Origin: Bryobacterales bacterium
GTDB lineage: Bacteria > Acidobacteriota > Terriglobia > Bryobacterales > Bryobacteraceae
NCBI GenBank assembly: GCA_009697505.1
Contig: SHUD01000023.1
Location: 1 to 37,670 of the forward strand
DNA: 37,670 nt
Direction of reading: 5' to 3'
The notes beneath the pieces were generated by a model. The model was given only the letters and a program-made list of their open reading frames with translations, did not search any database and had not been told where the DNA came from. Shown here one piece after another: positions 4,849-14,222 of this stretch. Position numbers and translations under genes: made by a program. Within the stretch, counting starts at the first letter, position 1; every line of letters begins with the position of its first letter.

Positions 4849-5343
4849 CTATTCCAGCGCGGCCCGCACATCCGCGAGTGTCACCAGCAGAGTCATCGGT
4901 TCATGCGTCGACGACACGAACCCGAGGGCCAGGTAAAATCGCTTCGCTTCTTCTGAAATCGCATGCACCACGATGCCGCGAATCCCGATGGCAGCCGCCG
5001 CTGAGGCCACGCGTCTGGCCGCATCCCGAAACATTGCCCTTCCCAGCCCATGCCCCTGGTAGGCACGATCCACCGCGAGCCGCGCCAATACCGCGACCGG
5101 GATCGGGTCCGGCATGTTGCGCCTGAACTTGCCCGGAGCCGTGTTCGCCACTATGGCTCCGGAGGCCAGGGCATAGTAGGCCACCACTCTCCCCGCGTCG
5201 CACACCACATATGTTCTCGACGCGCCGCTCACCTGATTAGCGCGCGCGCGCCGCCGCAGCCACTGATCGAGCGACGGTTCCCCCGAATCGAAATTCTCAA
5301 AGATGTGACGATCGCCCAGCGGCTCAGGAGCGGTAACGGCCAA
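4849..5343 (-). CDS. tacT: GNAT acetyltransferase toxin (TacT-like)
   Basis: A 164-aa GNAT-fold protein. TacT family toxins acetylate the amino group of charged tRNAs and stop translation. Family features are the opening '...FDSGEPSLDQWLRRRARANQ', an AcCoA pyrophosphate-binding loop QGHGLG at residues 96-101, and the terminal FYLALGF at 137-142, whose Tyr is the usual general acid. It lies 3 nt after an RHH/DUF1778 antitoxin on the same strand, the standard TacA-TacT arrangement, which makes the toxin role likely rather than a general N-acetyltransferase. The frr and tacT stop codons are 7 nt apart, convergent. Confidence 0.88.
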   Translation of the reverse strand: MAVTAPEPLGDRHIFENFDSGEPSLDQWLRRRARANQVSGASRTYVVCDAGRVVAYYALASGAIVANTAPGKFRRNMPDPIPVAVLARLAVDRAYQGHGLGRAMFRDAARRVASAAAAIGIRGIVVHAISEEAKRFYLALGFVSSTHEPMTLLVTLADVRAALE

Positions 5344-5346
5344 GCG

Positions 5347-5625
5347 TCAATCCCAGGGAGCCGCCGTTTGCAGCGTTTTCTTCAGTCGTTTGTTGGGCCG
5401 CGCGGGAGCGTCCAGACGTGCCAGGAATTCCGCGTAGGCCTTGGGGCTGAACTTAAAGACGGTGCGGTCAAGCAGCGCTTCCTCGGCAGCTTGGCGCGCG
5501 GCGTCCAGCATGAAATCGGTCCGGTTCTTGCCCGTGAGTTCCGCCGCGCGGTCGATCAATCCCCGTACTTCCGGCTTGATCCGGAGATTGAGAGTCGTCC
5601 TTTTCCCGCGTTCCGATACCTGCAT
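5347..5625 (-). CDS. tacA: TacA-like RHH antitoxin (DUF1778)
   Basis: Antitoxin with an N-terminal ribbon-helix-helix DNA-binding part (KRTTLNLRIKPEVRGLIDRAAELTG) and the C-terminal toxin-neutralising segment typical of the family (F-S-P-K-A-Y-A-E-F-L, then LDAPARPNKRLKKTL and the terminal PWD). I start it at the ATG at 5625 (MQVSERGKR), giving 92 aa; an in-frame upstream ATG at 5649 adds eight residues that lie partly in the operator. It precedes tacT by 3 nt. The perfect palindrome at 5648-5670 is the expected autoregulatory operator. Confidence 0.88.
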   Translation of the reverse strand: MQVSERGKRTTLNLRIKPEVRGLIDRAAELTGKNRTDFMLDAARQAAEEALLDRTVFKFSPKAYAEFLARLDAPARPNKRLKKTLQTAAPWD

Positions 5626-5647
5626 ACCAATCCGGGACCAGCATAGC

Positions 5648-5670
5648 ACGTAATGACTATGTCATTACGT
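5648..5670. promoter_or_regulatory. Perfect palindromic operator of tacAT
   Basis: Arms ACGTAATGAC (5648-5657) and GTCATTACGT (5661-5670) are exact reverse complements around a TAT centre. The site lies about 22 nt upstream of the antitoxin start, where an RHH antitoxin would bind and repress its own operon. It is AT-rich compared with its surroundings. It could also influence the divergent M16 peptidase gene at 5715. Confidence 0.8.
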
Positions 5671-8659: not shown

Positions 8660-9463
8660 ATGAAACTCGCACCACTTTTTTTGCTCCGCGCGCTGTTCAG
8701 CGCGCTGCTCTGTGCCGCGCTGGCACTCGCGCAAATTCCCAGTGACGCCCGCGCCCGCAAGGCCATCGACGACGCGGTTGCCGCCCTGGGCGGCGGCAAA
8801 TTCCTGCAGATGGAGGACCGCGTCGAAACCGGCCGGGCCTACTCGTTCTACCGCGAAAGACTTTCCGGACTATCGATCGCGAAGATCTATACGCGCTACC
8901 TGACTGTCCCTCCGGCCAAATCGGGTGAGGAGCTGGGCCTCCGCGAGCGCCAGGCTTTCGGCAAGAACGAGGACTCGGCCATCGTGTTCCGCGAAGACGG
9001 CGGCGCGAACGTGACCTATCGCGGGTCCAAGGCCATGCCCAAGGAAGATTTCGAGCGCTACCGGGAAACCATGCTGCACAACGTCTTGTACATTTTGCGG
9101 CAGCGTCTCCAGGAGCCCGGTCTCACGTTTGAATCGCGCGGCTCCGATGTAGTCGACCACTTGCCTGTCGAGGTCGTCGACATCATCGACTCCACCAACC
9201 GCGCGACGCGGGTCTACTTTCACCAGACCACCAAGCTGCCGGTGAAGCAGACCTGGTCCCGCCTGGATTCCAAGACCAAGGAACGCGACGAGGAAGTCAC
9301 CATTTTCGACCGCTACCGGGAGATTCAGGGCATCCAATGGCCGCAGCAGATCACGCGCGAGCGCAACCGCGAGCGGATCTACCAGATTTTTTCCGAATCC
9401 GTGGTCTTCAACCAGGACCTGACCGACGATCTGTTCTCTACGGAGCTGAAGCGGAAAAAGTGA
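8660..9463 (+). CDS. Secreted hypothetical protein (LolA-like scaffold?)
   Basis: A 267-aa exported protein of unknown role. It has a signal peptide of about 25 residues (FSALLCAALALAQ) followed by ARKAIDDAVAALGGGKFLQMEDRVETG and then a beta-rich body with a VEVVDIIDSTNRATRVYFHQTTKLPVKQTW stretch. That last pattern (lipid or substrate binding, 'leading to a fixed residue, then conversion') resembles LolA/LolB-type outer-membrane lipoprotein-sorting folds, but I see no diagnostic motif. It starts 9 nt after the M16 pair and is probably in the same operon. Its 3' end overlaps the convergent response-regulator gene by 26 nt. Confidence 0.75.
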   Translation: MKLAPLFLLRALFSALLCAALALAQIPSDARARKAIDDAVAALGGGKFLQMEDRVETGRAYSFYRERLSGLSIAKIYTRYLTVPPAKSGEELGLRERQAFGKNEDSAIVFREDGGANVTYRGSKAMPKEDFERYRETMLHNVLYILRQRLQEPGLTFESRGSDVVDHLPVEVVDIIDSTNRATRVYFHQTTKLPVKQTWSRLDSKTKERDEEVTIFDRYREIQGIQWPQQITRERNRERIYQIFSESVVFNQDLTDDLFSTELKRKK

Positions 9464-11045
9464 GCGCCGGATTGGGCGTTGGATGCAGCGCCGCGCGCAC
9501 CTGCTCAAGCAGAGCCCGCTGCGTATAGGGCGCCGCGACTTCCACCAGCGGCACGCCCTCGATGGGACGCGTGGCGCCGATCACCAGATCCACGTGCTGC
9601 AACTCCGCCAGCGTCCTCGCCTGTTCGTCATCGGCCGCCTCCAGCAGGTTATACCCGTTGGCCTCGAAGAAATTGTGGAGCTGCGCCCGCACTCCCTCGC
9701 GCGGTTCGACCAGCAACAGCGTCGCCACCTCGCCAGCGGCCGGCGCCGGCGCCTGCCAGCGCGGGAAAAACGCTTCCAGCCGCCGCTCGTCTTCCGGCGA
9801 TAAATAAGGAGTGATGGCGATGTCCAGCGAATCCAAATCCGCACCCTCGCCCGTGTGACTGACCGCAAAAGAAACCTGGTCGCCAGCGCGATCCTTTACG
9901 TCCGCCGTTTCGATCCGAAGCTCGCCACCGTTGGGCATGGCGGTCACCGCGTGCATGACCAGGCGCATCAGCAATTCTTCGGTATGCGCGGCATCGGCGA
10001 AAATCTTGCCGTGGGCCGCGCCCGCGTGCAGAATGACCTTGGTGCGCTCTCCCGCCAGTGACTGAATCAGCCGCGACATGCGGCGCAGGATGCCATGCAG
10101 ACTCAGTGGTTCCGGGTGCCCGGGATGCCCGCCCGCGATCCCCTCCAGCCGCCGCGTGACCCGGTCCGCGGCCGCCGCCGCTTGCTGGATTTCGTGCAGC
10201 GGCTGGCTCACGGGAGGGTAATCTTCGAATTGCCGCAGGAGGTGTTCCGCCTGATTGCGGATCGTCGCGATCAGGTTGGTATACTCGTTGGCCACGCTGG
10301 CCGCCAGCCGCGCCGTAATCTCCCCCCGCTCCATTTGCCGGAGCCGTGTTTGTTCGCGCCTTTGCCGGCTCACCTCGCTCAGCGTGAGGACCGCGCCGAT
10401 CAGTTTCCCGCCATGCTTGACCGGGGCGGCATGGCCTTCCGCCATCGCCTCCCCTACGCGCGCGGCCACGGGCACTGGAGCGTCCTCGAGAATCGCCAGC
10501 GCCACCGGATCGCCGGAAAGGATCTCCGCCACCGTTCCCGGCTTGCCTCCGAGCAGCGCTTCCGCCGCCGGATTCATCATCCGCACCTGGCCTTGCGCGT
10601 CGGTGATGACCACCGCGTCCGCGGCCGCGCCCAGAGCCGCCCGCAACCAGGCCTCGCTCTCTTCGAGTTGCCGTTCCATTTGGTGCTTGTAGAGCACGAT
10701 CTCGATGGTGGTTTGCAATGCCGCGGACGCCACCGGCTTCACGATATATCCGTACGGCCCCGCCCGCTTGGCGCGTTCCAGCGTCGAGTTGTCGGTGTGC
10801 GCCGTGAGAAACACCACCGGCAAGCGGTAGCGCTCGCGGATGATGGTCGCCGCTTCGATGCCGTCGCCCGGCCCGTCGATGCGGATGTCCATCAGCACAA
10901 TATCGGCCCCCGCCGCCTGCTCGACGGCCTCCGCCACGGTGCTGGCTGTCCCTACAACCGTGTGGCCCATGGCCTCCAGGCGCGCGGAGATGTCGGCCGC
11001 GATCAACCCCTCGTCTTCCACCACTAAGACTCTACGTGCCGTCAT
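9438..11045 (-). CDS. REC-PAS-degenerate kinase-pseudoREC protein
   Basis: A 535-aa signalling protein with an odd mixture of intact and dead domains. The N-terminal receiver (about 5-120) keeps the acidic pair E10-D11, phospho-acceptor D53 and K103. A PAS domain follows (about 130-225, DAVVITDAQGQVRMMNPAAEALLG). The next part aligns with the hybrid-kinase H-box 'LAxxIAHDFNNLL' but reads LAASVANEYTNLI, so the phospho-accepting His is Asn253. The ATPase-like region lacks a normal N-box and G-boxes. The C-terminal receiver (about 442-520) has lost its acidic pair (VEPRE), its Asp (VDLVIGATRP, Ala491) and its Lys (AAPY). It overlaps the upstream kinase gene by 14 nt, so the two are coupled. It probably acts as a receiver-controlled scaffold rather than a kinase. 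Confidence 0.85.
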   Translation of the reverse strand: MTARRVLVVEDEGLIAADISARLEAMGHTVVGTASTVAEAVEQAAGADIVLMDIRIDGPGDGIEAATIIRERYRLPVVFLTAHTDNSTLERAKRAGPYGYIVKPVASAALQTTIEIVLYKHQMERQLEESEAWLRAALGAAADAVVITDAQGQVRMMNPAAEALLGGKPGTVAEILSGDPVALAILEDAPVPVAARVGEAMAEGHAAPVKHGGKLIGAVLTLSEVSRQRREQTRLRQMERGEITARLAASVANEYTNLIATIRNQAEHLLRQFEDYPPVSQPLHEIQQAAAAADRVTRRLEGIAGGHPGHPEPLSLHGILRRMSRLIQSLAGERTKVILHAGAAHGKIFADAAHTEELLMRLVMHAVTAMPNGGELRIETADVKDRAGDQVSFAVSHTGEGADLDSLDIAITPYLSPEDERRLEAFFPRWQAPAPAAGEVATLLLVEPREGVRAQLHNFFEANGYNLLEAADDEQARTLAELQHVDLVIGATRPIEGVPLVEVAAPYTQRALLEQVRAALHPTPNPALTFSASAP

Positions 11046-12114
11046 GGTCTGTCTCCATTGAGCCTGCCTCCGTTAAGGGAAATGTAAGGCGGAAAATCGT
11101 CGCTTTCGACCGCAGCTCGCACACGGATTCAAACTTGCCCCTGAGCTGCCGCGTGAGGATGTTGACAATGCGCAGCCCCAGCGATTTCGGCTGCAACAGG
11201 TCCACCGGCTCCGGCAATCCCATGCCGTCGTCGCGGACTTCCAGAGTGACCCGCCCGTCGCGCCGGCCGCCGCGGATGCAAACCGAGCCGGTTCTCCCGT
11301 CCGCGAAAGCGTGCTTCAGTGCATTGGAAACCAATTCGTTTAAAATCAAACCCGCCGGAATCGCCTGATCCACGGCTAGCGGCAACGGTTCCATTTCCAT
11401 GCGCAGACTCACCCGTGGCTCCTCGAACCCGTAGGTGTGCAGCAGGCTGCCGGCGATGAGCGCCGCATGCCGCGCCAGATCCACCATCCTCAGGTCCCCG
11501 GCCTGATATAACTGCTCATGAATCTGCGCCATGAATTCGATGCGATTTTGCATTTCGCGCAGCATTAGCGCCAGCCGCTCGTCGGGAAAGGCTTTGGCCT
11601 GCAGCCGCAGCAGGCTGACGATCACCTGCATATTATTCTTCACGCGGTGATGCACTTCCTGGAGCAATACGTCCTTTTCGGCGAGCGACCGCGACAGTCG
11701 GTCCCGCTCGTCGCGGAGATCCCGCAGCAAACCCACCTTCTGGGTGGCTTTGTCGATGGCCATGCGCAAGCCCTCGGCCGTGATCGCGTCTTTGGACAGA
11801 TAATCCTGCGCGCCGCCCCGTAAGGCCTTCACCGCCACGCCCTCGCTAGCCAGCCCGGTCAGCATTACCACCGCCGATGCCGGAATCTCCGCCGGTGGAT
11901 CCCCCGCCAGCCGCGCCAGAAACTCTAGTCCGGTCATATCGGGAAGCTTGTAGTCCAGCAACACGCAATCCGGCGCCTGGCTCCGGCACAACGCAAGCCC
12001 CCGCGCGCCGTCCGGAGCTTCCACGAATTCCACGGCGCCCGCGTGATCTTCTTCGAGAAGCGTGCGGTACAGTTTCCGGTCGGCCGCCGAATCGTCCACC
12101 ATAATGACGCGCAT
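11032..12114 (-). CDS. REC-HisKA_2 sensor histidine kinase
   Basis: A 360-aa soluble hybrid with the receiver in front. The receiver (1-125) has D7-D8, D54 (VLLDYKLPDM) and K108. A coiled coil (about 125-150) leads to a HisKA_2 dimerisation domain with EVHHRVKNNMQVIVSLL (phospho-accepting His about 155). The HATPase domain has the N-box NELVSNALKHAF (259-270), DDGMGLP (295-301) and SLGLRIVNIL. No transmembrane or sensor domain is present, so the input is a phosphorelay through the receiver. It lies upstream of, and overlaps by 14 nt, the pseudokinase gene that also begins with an intact receiver, a plausible phosphate acceptor. Confidence 0.92.
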   Translation of the reverse strand: MRVIMVDDSAADRKLYRTLLEEDHAGAVEFVEAPDGARGLALCRSQAPDCVLLDYKLPDMTGLEFLARLAGDPPAEIPASAVVMLTGLASEGVAVKALRGGAQDYLSKDAITAEGLRMAIDKATQKVGLLRDLRDERDRLSRSLAEKDVLLQEVHHRVKNNMQVIVSLLRLQAKAFPDERLALMLREMQNRIEFMAQIHEQLYQAGDLRMVDLARHAALIAGSLLHTYGFEEPRVSLRMEMEPLPLAVDQAIPAGLILNELVSNALKHAFADGRTGSVCIRGGRRDGRVTLEVRDDGMGLPEPVDLLQPKSLGLRIVNILTRQLRGKFESVCELRSKATIFRLTFPLTEAGSMETDHDGT

Positions 12115-12191: not shown

Positions 12192-13202
12192 ATGGAACAC
12201 GTAAAACTTCTGCTCGCGATCCCGATGGCGCTATTGGTATCGTCCGGCGCCTCCGCGCAGGCGCCCGTCGCCGTTGCAATGAAAGACGCCGCCAAGAAGA
12301 CTACCGTGGCCCCCGCCGCCAAGGTGTGGGCCCCCAGCAAGACCCTCGACGGCCAGCCGGACATCCAGGGCATCTGGACCAACCCCACCATCACCCCGTT
12401 CGAGCGCCCGGTCGAGCTCGGCAACAAGGCCACACTCACCGCGGCGGAAGTCCAGGAAATGGAGCGCAAAGCCGCCGCCAATCGCGTGGATAAGCCGCCC
12501 GCGCCCGGCGATCCCGGCGGCTACAATCAGGCCTGGTTTGACGGCGGCACGAAAGTCGTCGCCACCCGCGCGACCTCCCTCGTCGTTGAGCCCGCCAACG
12601 GCCGCGTGCCCGTCAAGGCCTCCGCCGAAGCCAAGCGCGACTACGATCTCGCCCACATCACCGATTCCTGGGAACACATGAGCGTCTGGGACCGCTGCAT
12701 TACCCGCGGTGTCCCTGGCGGCATGTTCCCGGCCGGCTACAACAACGCTTACCAGATTCTGCAGAGCTCGGGTTACGTGACCATCCTGTATGAAATGATC
12801 CACGAAACCCGTGTCATCCCCATCGGCAACAGCCCGCACTTGCCGTCCAATATTCGCTTGTGGAACGGCGATTCGCGCGGCCACTGGGAAGGCAACACGC
12901 TGGTGGTGGATATCACCAACTACAACGGCAAGGGCTGGATCGGCACCAGCGCCGCCACGCAGCGCATCAAAGGCATCCCGCAGAGCCAGAAGCTGCACGT
13001 GGTCGAACGCTTCACCCGCGTTGACGCCGGCACGCTCAACTACGAGGTCACCATCGAGGACCCCGAAGTCTACGACCGCCCCTGGAAAGTCTCCATCCCC
13101 TTAAGCCGCGATCCCGAATACACGATCTACGAGTACGCCTGCCAGGAAGGCAACATGGCGGTGGAGAACATCCTCCGCGGCGGAAGGAAGCAGGATCAGT
13201 AG
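12192..13202 (+). CDS. Secreted hypothetical protein, tandem paralog A
   Basis: A 336-aa exported protein of unknown function from a family I associate with Solibacter-like Acidobacteria. It has a signal peptide (LLAIPMALLVSSGASAQA), then an Ala/Lys-rich linker of about 25 residues (VAVAMKDAAKKTTVAPAAK) absent from paralog B. The conserved body has DGQPDIQGIWTNPTITPFER, WEHMSVWDRCITRGVPGGM, YNNAYQIL, YVTILYEMIHETRVIP, LWNGDSRGHWEGNTLVVDITNYN and a C-terminal YEYACQEGNMAVENIL. Two conserved Cys may form a disulfide. No enzyme motif is recognised. The next gene is a close copy. Confidence 0.85.
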   Translation: MEHVKLLLAIPMALLVSSGASAQAPVAVAMKDAAKKTTVAPAAKVWAPSKTLDGQPDIQGIWTNPTITPFERPVELGNKATLTAAEVQEMERKAAANRVDKPPAPGDPGGYNQAWFDGGTKVVATRATSLVVEPANGRVPVKASAEAKRDYDLAHITDSWEHMSVWDRCITRGVPGGMFPAGYNNAYQILQSSGYVTILYEMIHETRVIPIGNSPHLPSNIRLWNGDSRGHWEGNTLVVDITNYNGKGWIGTSAATQRIKGIPQSQKLHVVERFTRVDAGTLNYEVTIEDPEVYDRPWKVSIPLSRDPEYTIYEYACQEGNMAVENILRGGRKQDQ

Positions 13203-13261: not shown

Positions 13262-13338
13262 TATACTGGCAACATCCGCTATGGAACACGTAAAACTTCT
13301 GCTCGCGATCCCGATGGCGCTATTGGTATCGTCCGGCG
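13262..13338 (+). repeat. Second copy of a 77-bp promoter/signal-peptide segment
   Basis: Positions 12173-12249 and 13262-13338 are identical except one base (g/a at the tenth position of the stretch). The segment covers the -10 box, the start codon and the first ~19 codons. The rest of the two genes differs at many third codon positions, so this block is unusually well preserved. Confidence 0.9.
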
Positions 13339-14222
13339 TTTATGCGCAGGCGCCCGCCAAAACCCCCGACGGCCAGCCCGACATCCAGGGCATCTGGACC
13401 AACCCCACCATCACCCCCTTCGAGCGCCCCGTCGAACTCGGCAACAAAGCCACGCTCACCGAGGCCGAAGTCAGGGAAATGGAGCGTAAAGCCGCCGCCA
13501 ACAGCGTCGACCGCGCCCCCAAACCCGGCGACCCCGGCAGTTACAACCGCGCCTGGACCGACGCCGGCACCAAGGTCGTCTCCACGCGCGCCACTTCGCT
13601 GGTGGTCGAACCCGCCAACGGCCGCGTTCCCGTGAAGGCCTCCGCCGAAGCCCGGCGCAACTACGACCTGGCCCACGTCGGCGATTCCTGGGAGCACATG
13701 AGCACCTGGGACCGCTGCATCACCCGCGGCGTTCCCGCCGGCATGTTTCCCGCCGGTTACAACAACGCCTATCAGATTCTGCAAACTCCCGGTTACGTGA
13801 CCATCCTGTATGAGATGATCCACGAAACCCGCGTCATCCCCACCGGCAACAGCCCGCATCTGCCGTCGAACATCCGCCTGTGGAACGGCGATTCGCGCGG
13901 CCACTGGGAAGGCAACACTCTGGTGGTCGATATCACCAACTACAACAACAAAGGCTGGATCGCCACCAGCGGCGCCACGCAGCGCATCAGAGGCATCCAC
14001 ATCAGCGAAAAGCTGCACGTAGTGGAGCGCTTCACCCGCACCGACGCCGACACGCTCCTGTATGAAGTCACCATCGAGGACCCTGAAACTTACGAGCGTC
14101 CCTGGAAAGTTTCCATCCCCTTGTCCCGCGATCCCGAATATAAGCTCTACGAGTACGCCTGCCAGGAAGGCAACATGGCTGTCGAGAACATCCTCCGCGG
14201 CGGCCGCAAGCAAGATCAGTAG
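13281..14222 (+). CDS. Secreted hypothetical protein, tandem paralog B
   Basis: A 313-aa duplicate of the preceding gene: same signal peptide, same body motifs (DGQPDIQGIWTNPTITPFER, WEHMSTWDRCITRGVPAGM, LWNGDSRGHWEGNTLVVDITNYNNKGW, YEYACQEGNMAVENILRGGRKQDQ) but without the Ala/Lys linker after the signal peptide. The two genes lie 78 nt apart in the same orientation, and each carries its own TATACT box, so they can be transcribed independently. Substitutions such as S/T in HMSVWD/HMSTWD and K/R changes are conservative, which suggests both copies are under selection. Function is unknown. Confidence 0.85.
   Translation: MEHVKLLLAIPMALLVSSGVYAQAPAKTPDGQPDIQGIWTNPTITPFERPVELGNKATLTEAEVREMERKAAANSVDRAPKPGDPGSYNRAWTDAGTKVVSTRATSLVVEPANGRVPVKASAEARRNYDLAHVGDSWEHMSTWDRCITRGVPAGMFPAGYNNAYQILQTPGYVTILYEMIHETRVIPTGNSPHLPSNIRLWNGDSRGHWEGNTLVVDITNYNNKGWIATSGATQRIRGIHISEKLHVVERFTRTDADTLLYEVTIEDPETYERPWKVSIPLSRDPEYKLYEYACQEGNMAVENILRGGRKQDQ

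Follow-up and report, generated by a model that had tools for sequence, protein, structure and literature searches.

A gene pair in the genome of a Bryobacterales bacterium (Bryobacteraceae; GenBank assembly GCA_009697505.1, contig SHUD01000023.1) combines an intact histidine kinase with a protein whose own kinase fold and second receiver are dead. The pair lies on the minus strand of the window, the whole 37,670-nucleotide (nt) stretch that was analysed, as two open reading frames (ORFs) at 9438-11045 (535 residues) and 11032-12114 (360 residues). They have 14 nt in common, and on the minus strand the kinase gene is upstream and the 535-residue gene downstream. We propose, at roughly even confidence, a two-gene module in which a hybrid response regulator like LvrB would have had its effector kinase turned into a binding module of the DivL kind, with phosphorylation of Asp53 as the switch. 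Comparison of orthologues indicates that the dead domains are under purifying selection and shows that conservation has moved away from the former active sites; these domains probably remain functional, through binding and not catalysis. The features of the pair are the following.

11032-12114, minus strand: upstream gene, 360-residue REC-HisKA_2-HATPase_c kinase with receiver Asp54 and H-box HHRVKNN
9438-11045, minus strand: downstream gene, 535-residue REC-PAS-pseudoDHp-pseudoATPase-pseudoREC protein with orthologues in 19 of 23 genus genomes
10701-11039, minus strand: live receiver 1 (residues 3-115) with E10, D11, D53, T81 and K103; Pfam Response_reg, E value 3e-24
10362-10664, minus strand: PAS domain (residues 128-228), shorter in the window clade, behind a long helix (residues 107-140); from Pfam, AlphaFold model and alignment
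10116-10337, minus strand: pseudo-DHp (residues 237-310) with N253 instead of His, retaining E254 and N257, which may form an ExxN phosphatase motif; from alignment and model
9750-10115, minus strand: pseudo-ATPase domain (residues 311-432) with N-box H365 and G1 H397 and without ATP lid; HATPase_c at 18.1 bits against a cut-off of 26.4
9486-9725, minus strand: pseudo-receiver (residues 441-520) with P448, A491 and A505, conserved at 453-472 (RAQLHNFFEANGYNLLEAAD) and 507-513 (YTQRALL); from alignment and model

A preliminary description, made from the sequence alone, had read the upstream gene as an intact REC-HisKA_2-HATPase kinase overlapping its neighbour by 14 nt. Both points are borne out: HisKA_2 (E value 1.4e-23), HATPase_c and Response_reg all exceed their Pfam cut-offs, the receiver, H-box, N-box and G-boxes are complete, and the ORF coordinates give the same overlap. 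The kinase's own receiver (11755-12114, minus strand) is unusually close to the receiver of PDB entry 6oap, a 'Dual sensor histidine kinase' (E value 9.4e-29; next match 8e-12).

In the 535-residue protein, E10, D11, D53 and K103 of receiver 1 and the Asn at 253 are present as had been claimed. The last receiver had been said to lack its acidic pair, its phospho-accepting Asp and its Lys; the latter two are indeed replaced by A491 and A505, but the acidic pair is only half lost, with E447 kept and P448 replacing the Asp. With that correction, the loss of every phosphotransfer residue after the PAS domain stands and extends to the ATP site, where His365 replaces the N-box Asn, His397 replaces the G1 Asp, and the F-box/G2 lid is deleted, but the statement that the fold-level pattern is kept was too generous for the window copy, whose AlphaFold model shows no lid and a mini-receiver. 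Given H365, H397, N253, P448, A491 and A505, the protein is expected not to bind ATP in the usual manner and not to hand on phosphate; receiver 1 should be phosphorylatable. The protein thus has none of the H-box His, N-box Asn, G1 Asp and ATP lid of an active histidine kinase, no HisKA match is listed for it in the Pfam search, and its HPTransfase (PF10090) match reaches 20.4 bits, under the cut-off of 22.9, with no His at 253. What it has is a kinase fold without catalytic functions retained under purifying selection, as in pseudo-histidine kinases, a reduced receiver fold without phosphotransfer residues, as in pseudo-receivers, and the LvrB-type architecture of a hybrid response regulator, with a live N-terminal receiver, a dead kinase module and no DNA-binding domain.

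The AlphaFold model of the window copy (mean predicted local distance difference test score [pLDDT], 78; predicted template modelling score [pTM], 0.39, and therefore readable at domain level only) contains receiver 1, the long helix, the PAS domain, a DHp hairpin, an ATPase sheet without lid and a mini-receiver. The mini-receiver runs beta1-alpha1-beta2-alpha2-beta3-beta5-alpha5, with alpha3-beta4-alpha4 missing. A model of orthologue L102 (pLDDT 84.6) is fuller, with more of the ATPase domain and a receiver that lacks alpha4 only. A Foldseek search of the PDB with the whole model returned PAS-kinase structures first and then LvrB (8vc9), at whole-chain TM-scores of 0.2-0.3, so low that the matches speak for domains only.

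The loss of catalytic residues extends across the genus. We counted orthologues of the 535-residue protein in 23 genomes of the genus (probably Bryobacteraceae) by a score gap (at least 690 bits against at most 260 bits) and found them in 19; 21 genomes have a match at an E value of 1e-40 or below, and G003 and G007, with only lower matches (at most 260 bits), were not counted. Kinase orthologues at the same E value occur in 18 genomes. Both genes are present in 18 genomes and neither in G001, G003, G007 and G014, each at least 95 percent complete; G021 has the pseudokinase only. Where the locus could be tested, kinase and pseudokinase are adjacent on the same strand in 17 of 18 cases, the window included. 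In G016 the pair locus runs off the end of its contig, and a fragment of the kinase lies on a different one; at locus L183 the ORF picker missed the pair, although it is present there.

Among the 19 orthologues, His253 occurs once (G016) and ten different residues occupy the position; the N-box Asn and the G1 Asp occur in none (residue 365 is His in 17), and Asp491 survives in nine and Lys505 in none (Arg in 16). Receiver 1 keeps D53, T81 and K103 in all 19, and E10 and D11 in all 18 that are readable. Two alignments differ slightly at 397 and 505, in one or two sequences, and agree on the counts for His253, Asn365, Asp397, Asp491 and Lys505. At an E value of 0.01 or below, Pfam recognizes Response_reg and PAS in all 19, HATPase_c in 15 and HisKA in one. 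Orthologues carrying both His253 and Asp491, which had been named as the sign of a loss confined to this strain, are thus not the pattern found; the original observation holds and is more general than could be seen from one sequence. The G016 copy (L011), the sole orthologue with His253, has a dead ATP site and keeps Asp491; these residues could mark an intermediate capable of phosphotransfer only, or a reversion.

Selection on the dead domains was gauged from the ratio of nonsynonymous to synonymous substitution rates (dN/dS), computed by domain in six orthologue pairs with the last 15 residues as a small internal control. Between the window and G002 the ratio was 0.23 in the pseudo-DHp, 0.14 in the pseudo-ATPase, 0.11 in the pseudo-receiver and 0.07 in the live receiver, with 0.89 in the C-terminal tail (11 codons). 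Across the six pairs it ranged over 0.05-0.16 in the live receiver, 0.06-0.26 in PAS, 0.06-0.25 in the pseudo-DHp (one pair saturated), 0.08-0.26 in the pseudo-ATPase and 0.08-0.38 in the pseudo-receiver, and over 0.17-2.7 in the last 15 residues of the four computable pairs (7-12 codons each). The live receiver was lowest of the five domains in four pairs, second in one and highest in one. Per-site conservation makes position 253 the least conserved of the 36 sites in its helix. In the pseudo-receiver, block 450-472 (alpha1-beta2) has a mean pairwise identity of 0.72, first of 79 circular blocks (live receiver, 0.70), and the catalytic stretch 491-503, at 0.25, is the worst listed. From R453 to L512 the pseudo-receiver has 13 positions that never vary among the 19 orthologues, and R263, R321, E356, F460, N466, D472 and T508 are fixed in all 19 where 16 intact rows favour other residues. 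Selection has preserved the dead parts, and so they probably still work. Genus-wide conservation, purifying selection, newly fixed residues and a loss centred on the active sites together give good support to the earlier suggestion that a pseudokinase with a dead receiver was kept for a noncatalytic role.

A wider set of relatives places this loss in context; full-length ones came from searches of the family and of the class. We built a maximum-likelihood tree of the receiver-PAS part from 55 of 59 aligned rows, rooted at the midpoint and with some weak placements; the homologues were chosen by score and by hand and so form a nonrandom sample. The tree and the counts omit FL046_10 and FL047_1 (without receiver 1), FL200_2 and FL207_11, the last of which has a long 5' frame extension, looks dead and has a live receiver 1. 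Rows with the His, the N-box Asn and the G1 Asp were labelled intact and those without the His and the N-box Asn dead, giving 21 intact, 30 dead and four mixed (L011_17, FL067_10, FL075_11 and FL202_11). The genus forms one clade (100/99), and the dead state takes five changes on the tree, four of them forced by well-supported branches. Receiver 1 keeps E10, D11, D53 and K103 in all 30 dead homologues (31 of 31 if FL207_11 is added). The N-box Asn became His in three dead lineages (the genus, L199/L201/L202 and L071/L194), and the G1 Asp became Tyr in two of them.

L213, the intact relative with the best score, belongs to another family; its receiver, PAS, HisKA and HATPase_c all exceed their cut-offs and a HisKA_2 kinase lies beside it. 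Within the short flanks fetched, a HisKA_2 match accompanies 12 of the 21 intact relatives (two of these 12, L064 and L074, partial or weak) and, beyond the genus, 8 of the 12 dead ones. These intact relatives make it doubtful that the pseudokinase was recruited to its kinase, as the preliminary description had it; the comparison suggests that the partner of a HisKA_2 kinase existed first and lost catalysis afterwards. A search of 299 genomes of the class gave 16 matches at an E value of 1e-85 or below (eight in the genus, five in the family, three elsewhere), with no dead orthologue in other families; L213 to L215 are intact. Two tandem arrangements were also seen: G137 (L201) has two dead kinases in a row, and G182 (L202) has one dead kinase and one with Arg at the H site and an intact ATP site, with no HisKA_2 match in the fetched flank.

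The type of receiver 1 bears on its input. Its best solved matches are receivers of diguanylate cyclases (3cg0 and 3h5i), Rv1626, which we take to be PdtaR, EutV and several PhyR-type regulators. PdtaR, EutV and PhyR-type regulators pair with HisKA_2/HWE kinases. As controls, the last receiver of an intact relative was closest to other hybrid kinases and Spo0F, and that of the kinase to 6oap, LuxO, PleD and DivK; neither control places receivers of the PdtaR, EutV and PhyR kind as high in its list as receiver 1 does. For this reason we expect Asp53 to be phosphorylated by the kinase. That the pseudokinase is phosphorylation-controlled, as originally proposed, is likely in view of the live receiver 1 in 30 of 30 dead homologues, the receiver type and the adjacency of the genes in 17 of 18 loci. 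That it serves as a scaffold for its own kinase is only one possibility, given that G021 has the pseudokinase without this kinase, and the earlier interpretation as a whole is partly supported.

In the proposed mechanism, the REC-HisKA_2 kinase would autophosphorylate and its phosphate would move to Asp53 of the partner's receiver 1. Phosphorylated receiver 1 would influence a putatively dimeric body of pseudo-DHp and pseudo-ATPase by way of its long helix at the C-terminal side and the PAS domain. Receiver alpha1 and the start of alpha5 are docking sites for DHp domains, and the conformation of the dead body, together with a putative docking face of the pseudo-receiver (alpha1-beta2 and the start of alpha5), may bind and regulate another signalling protein, whether its own kinase or a different kinase or regulator elsewhere. 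As neither a DNA-binding nor an enzymatic output is apparent, the likeliest output would be that the dead body changes conformation and a binding partner senses this.

Several observations weigh against this model. The single best match of receiver 1 is 3cg0, the receiver of a diguanylate cyclase rather than a HisKA_2 partner, and Rv1626 also matches the last receiver of the intact relative, more weakly. The docking face is putative, being drawn from general receiver topology. The pair L013/L016 has its highest dN/dS in the live receiver (0.16), and synonymous divergence (dS) in the pseudo-DHp between the window and G002 is low (0.26), so that the ratio for that domain is inflated. The window copy and its two nearest relatives have shortened the PAS, ATPase and pseudo-receiver domains further, which could signal a shrinking role. 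In G021, a kinase orthologue is absent at an E value of 1e-40 or below, and a gene that by eye resembles dnaX stands directly upstream of the pseudokinase, at the kinase position of other genomes; this is a natural loss of the kinase with the partner kept and receiver 1 still live (L003/L179), in a genome that carries other HisKA_2 kinases (L024). Finally, FL200_2 (L200, G234) is a mirror case, with a receiver-like but dead receiver 1, the H-box His replaced by Asn, and the ATP site and last receiver intact, so receiver 1 is not sacrosanct in the wider family.

The main rival, which we consider unlikely, is a pseudokinase that works solely as a phosphatase, its pseudo-DHp using E254 and N257 to dephosphorylate a regulator, perhaps the receiver of the kinase or receiver 1. 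ExxT/N is the HisKA phosphatase motif. Residue 254 is acidic in all 19 genus orthologues and is joined by Asn or Thr at 257 in 11, but 257 is Ser in seven and Gly in one, and in other lineages none of the 12 dead homologues has the combination. HisKA phosphatases are usually aided by the nucleotide site, which all 19 orthologues have lost. In favour of the rival, a 2025 review describes the conserved His as contributing to HisKA phosphatase activity without being essential (PMC12632262, in part).

Less probable still is a phosphate sink or timer, in which receiver 1 drains phosphate from the kinase and the remainder is inert leftover. It would fit the low dN/dS of receiver 1 (lowest in four of six pairs), its survival in all 30 dead homologues, and the dead homologues that have no last receiver (L193, L195, L203 and L204). 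An inert remainder, however, would not be expected to show 13 invariant positions in the pseudo-receiver, or dN/dS of 0.06-0.38 across the dead domains (saturated for one domain in one pair) when the last 15 residues give 0.17-2.7. We think it very unlikely that the protein resembles Spo0B, ChpT or RcsD, with no kinase activity and a DHp that relays phosphate between receivers. The weak PF10090 match, found in 2 of the 19 orthologues, and the G016 copy, which keeps His253 and Asp491 with a dead ATP site, lean that way, and a phosphotransfer intermediate may have existed or may still exist in G016. Nevertheless, position 253 lacks His in 18 of 19 orthologues and varies among ten residues, no invariant or nearly invariant column of the pseudo-DHp is His, and Lys505 is lost in all 19. 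A decaying gene or assembly error can practically be dismissed: domains are shortened in the window clade and the window genome assembly is 65 percent complete, but there is no stop within the match in any of the 19 orthologues (the G016 match is cut by the contig end), another genome has an 86 percent identical orthologue, dN/dS is low and site conservation rejects decay, and the orthologues in 19 of 23 genus genomes reject a recent loss or assembly error in this strain.

The reading that we prefer, a binding module switched by its own receiver beside a likely cognate kinase, shares parts with several known systems. In pairs of the PdtaS/PdtaR, EutW/EutV and PhyK/PhyR type, a HisKA_2/HWE kinase likewise goes with a receiver resembling receiver 1. 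Receivers of the PdtaR, EutV and PhyR type drive RNA-binding or anti-sigma outputs, whereas receiver 1 is fused to a pseudokinase. In the Leptospira operon pair LvrA/LvrB, the hybrid kinase LvrA phosphorylates the Asp in the N-terminal receiver of the hybrid response regulator LvrB, whose His161 is phosphorylatable and whose autokinase is active (PMC5863495, in part). Our pair likewise joins a cytoplasmic kinase to a REC-kinase partner without a DNA-binding domain, here at the level of gene pairing and with phosphotransfer predicted, but the effector kinase and second receiver of the 535-residue protein are dead. DivL of Caulobacter is a PAS-bearing kinase fold without kinase activity that reads the phosphorylation of a receiver (DivK~P) and sets a precedent for a dead kinase fold carrying such signals (PMC4211667, in part). 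The 535-residue protein has the same PAS domain and inactive kinase fold, and its reading of a receiver is putative; DivL has a Tyr in place of the H-box His and reads a regulator that is a separate protein (PMC4211667, in part), whereas the 535-residue protein carries its receiver in cis and its H site varies freely. The pseudo-receiver REC1 of ShkA binds cyclic di-GMP and controls a live kinase (PMC7010744, in part); the receiver fold described here likewise lacks phosphotransfer residues and is joined to a kinase fold, but to one that is dead as well.

The genes around the pair are variable. At least four gene neighbourhoods hold the two genes together, flanking genes differ, and across 15 neighbourhoods and the window there is no conserved operon or output gene beyond the pair. 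Only some members of the genus share the convergent genes that by eye resemble M16 peptidases and a gene of 267 residues (no Pfam match). The plus strand immediately upstream of the kinase gene carries a tandem of two closely similar genes at 12192-13202 and 13281-14222 (336 and 313 residues); the first gave no match in a Pfam search. Elsewhere in the window, a GNAT-like gene (4849-5649, minus strand) directly follows a small gene resembling a ribbon-helix-helix antitoxin, and the two presumably resemble a TacAT-type toxin-antitoxin pair.

Few pseudo-histidine kinases have been studied so far, DivL, a ChrS variant and RocA among them. HisKA domains without the phosphorylated His are rare (722 of 76,471), receivers without the phosphorylated Asp are uncommon (3,111 of 152,269), and how bacterial pseudo-receivers switch is called a mystery in the same 2025 review (PMC12632262, in part). 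The 535-residue protein unites both losses, with a likely catalytic partner next door, intact relatives for comparison, and a state that is conserved in the genus and recurs elsewhere. Hybrid response regulator, pseudo-histidine kinase and pseudo-receiver are known kinds, and none of the titles and abstracts that our searches of open-licence literature listed describes this protein, its pairing or the combination. The pair makes the role of a dead kinase fold testable with a few purified proteins. Tentatively, and with less confidence than for the module itself, we suggest that hybrid response regulators related to partners of HisKA_2 kinases may have turned repeatedly into receiver-gated pseudokinase switches, their kinase modules disarmed independently, often through identical substitutions at the ATP site (N-box Asn to His, G1 Asp to Tyr or His), and their fused receivers still live. 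If true, repeated disarming would be a recurrent route to noncatalytic, phosphorylation-controlled signalling proteins in which the phosphorylated receiver is read in cis.

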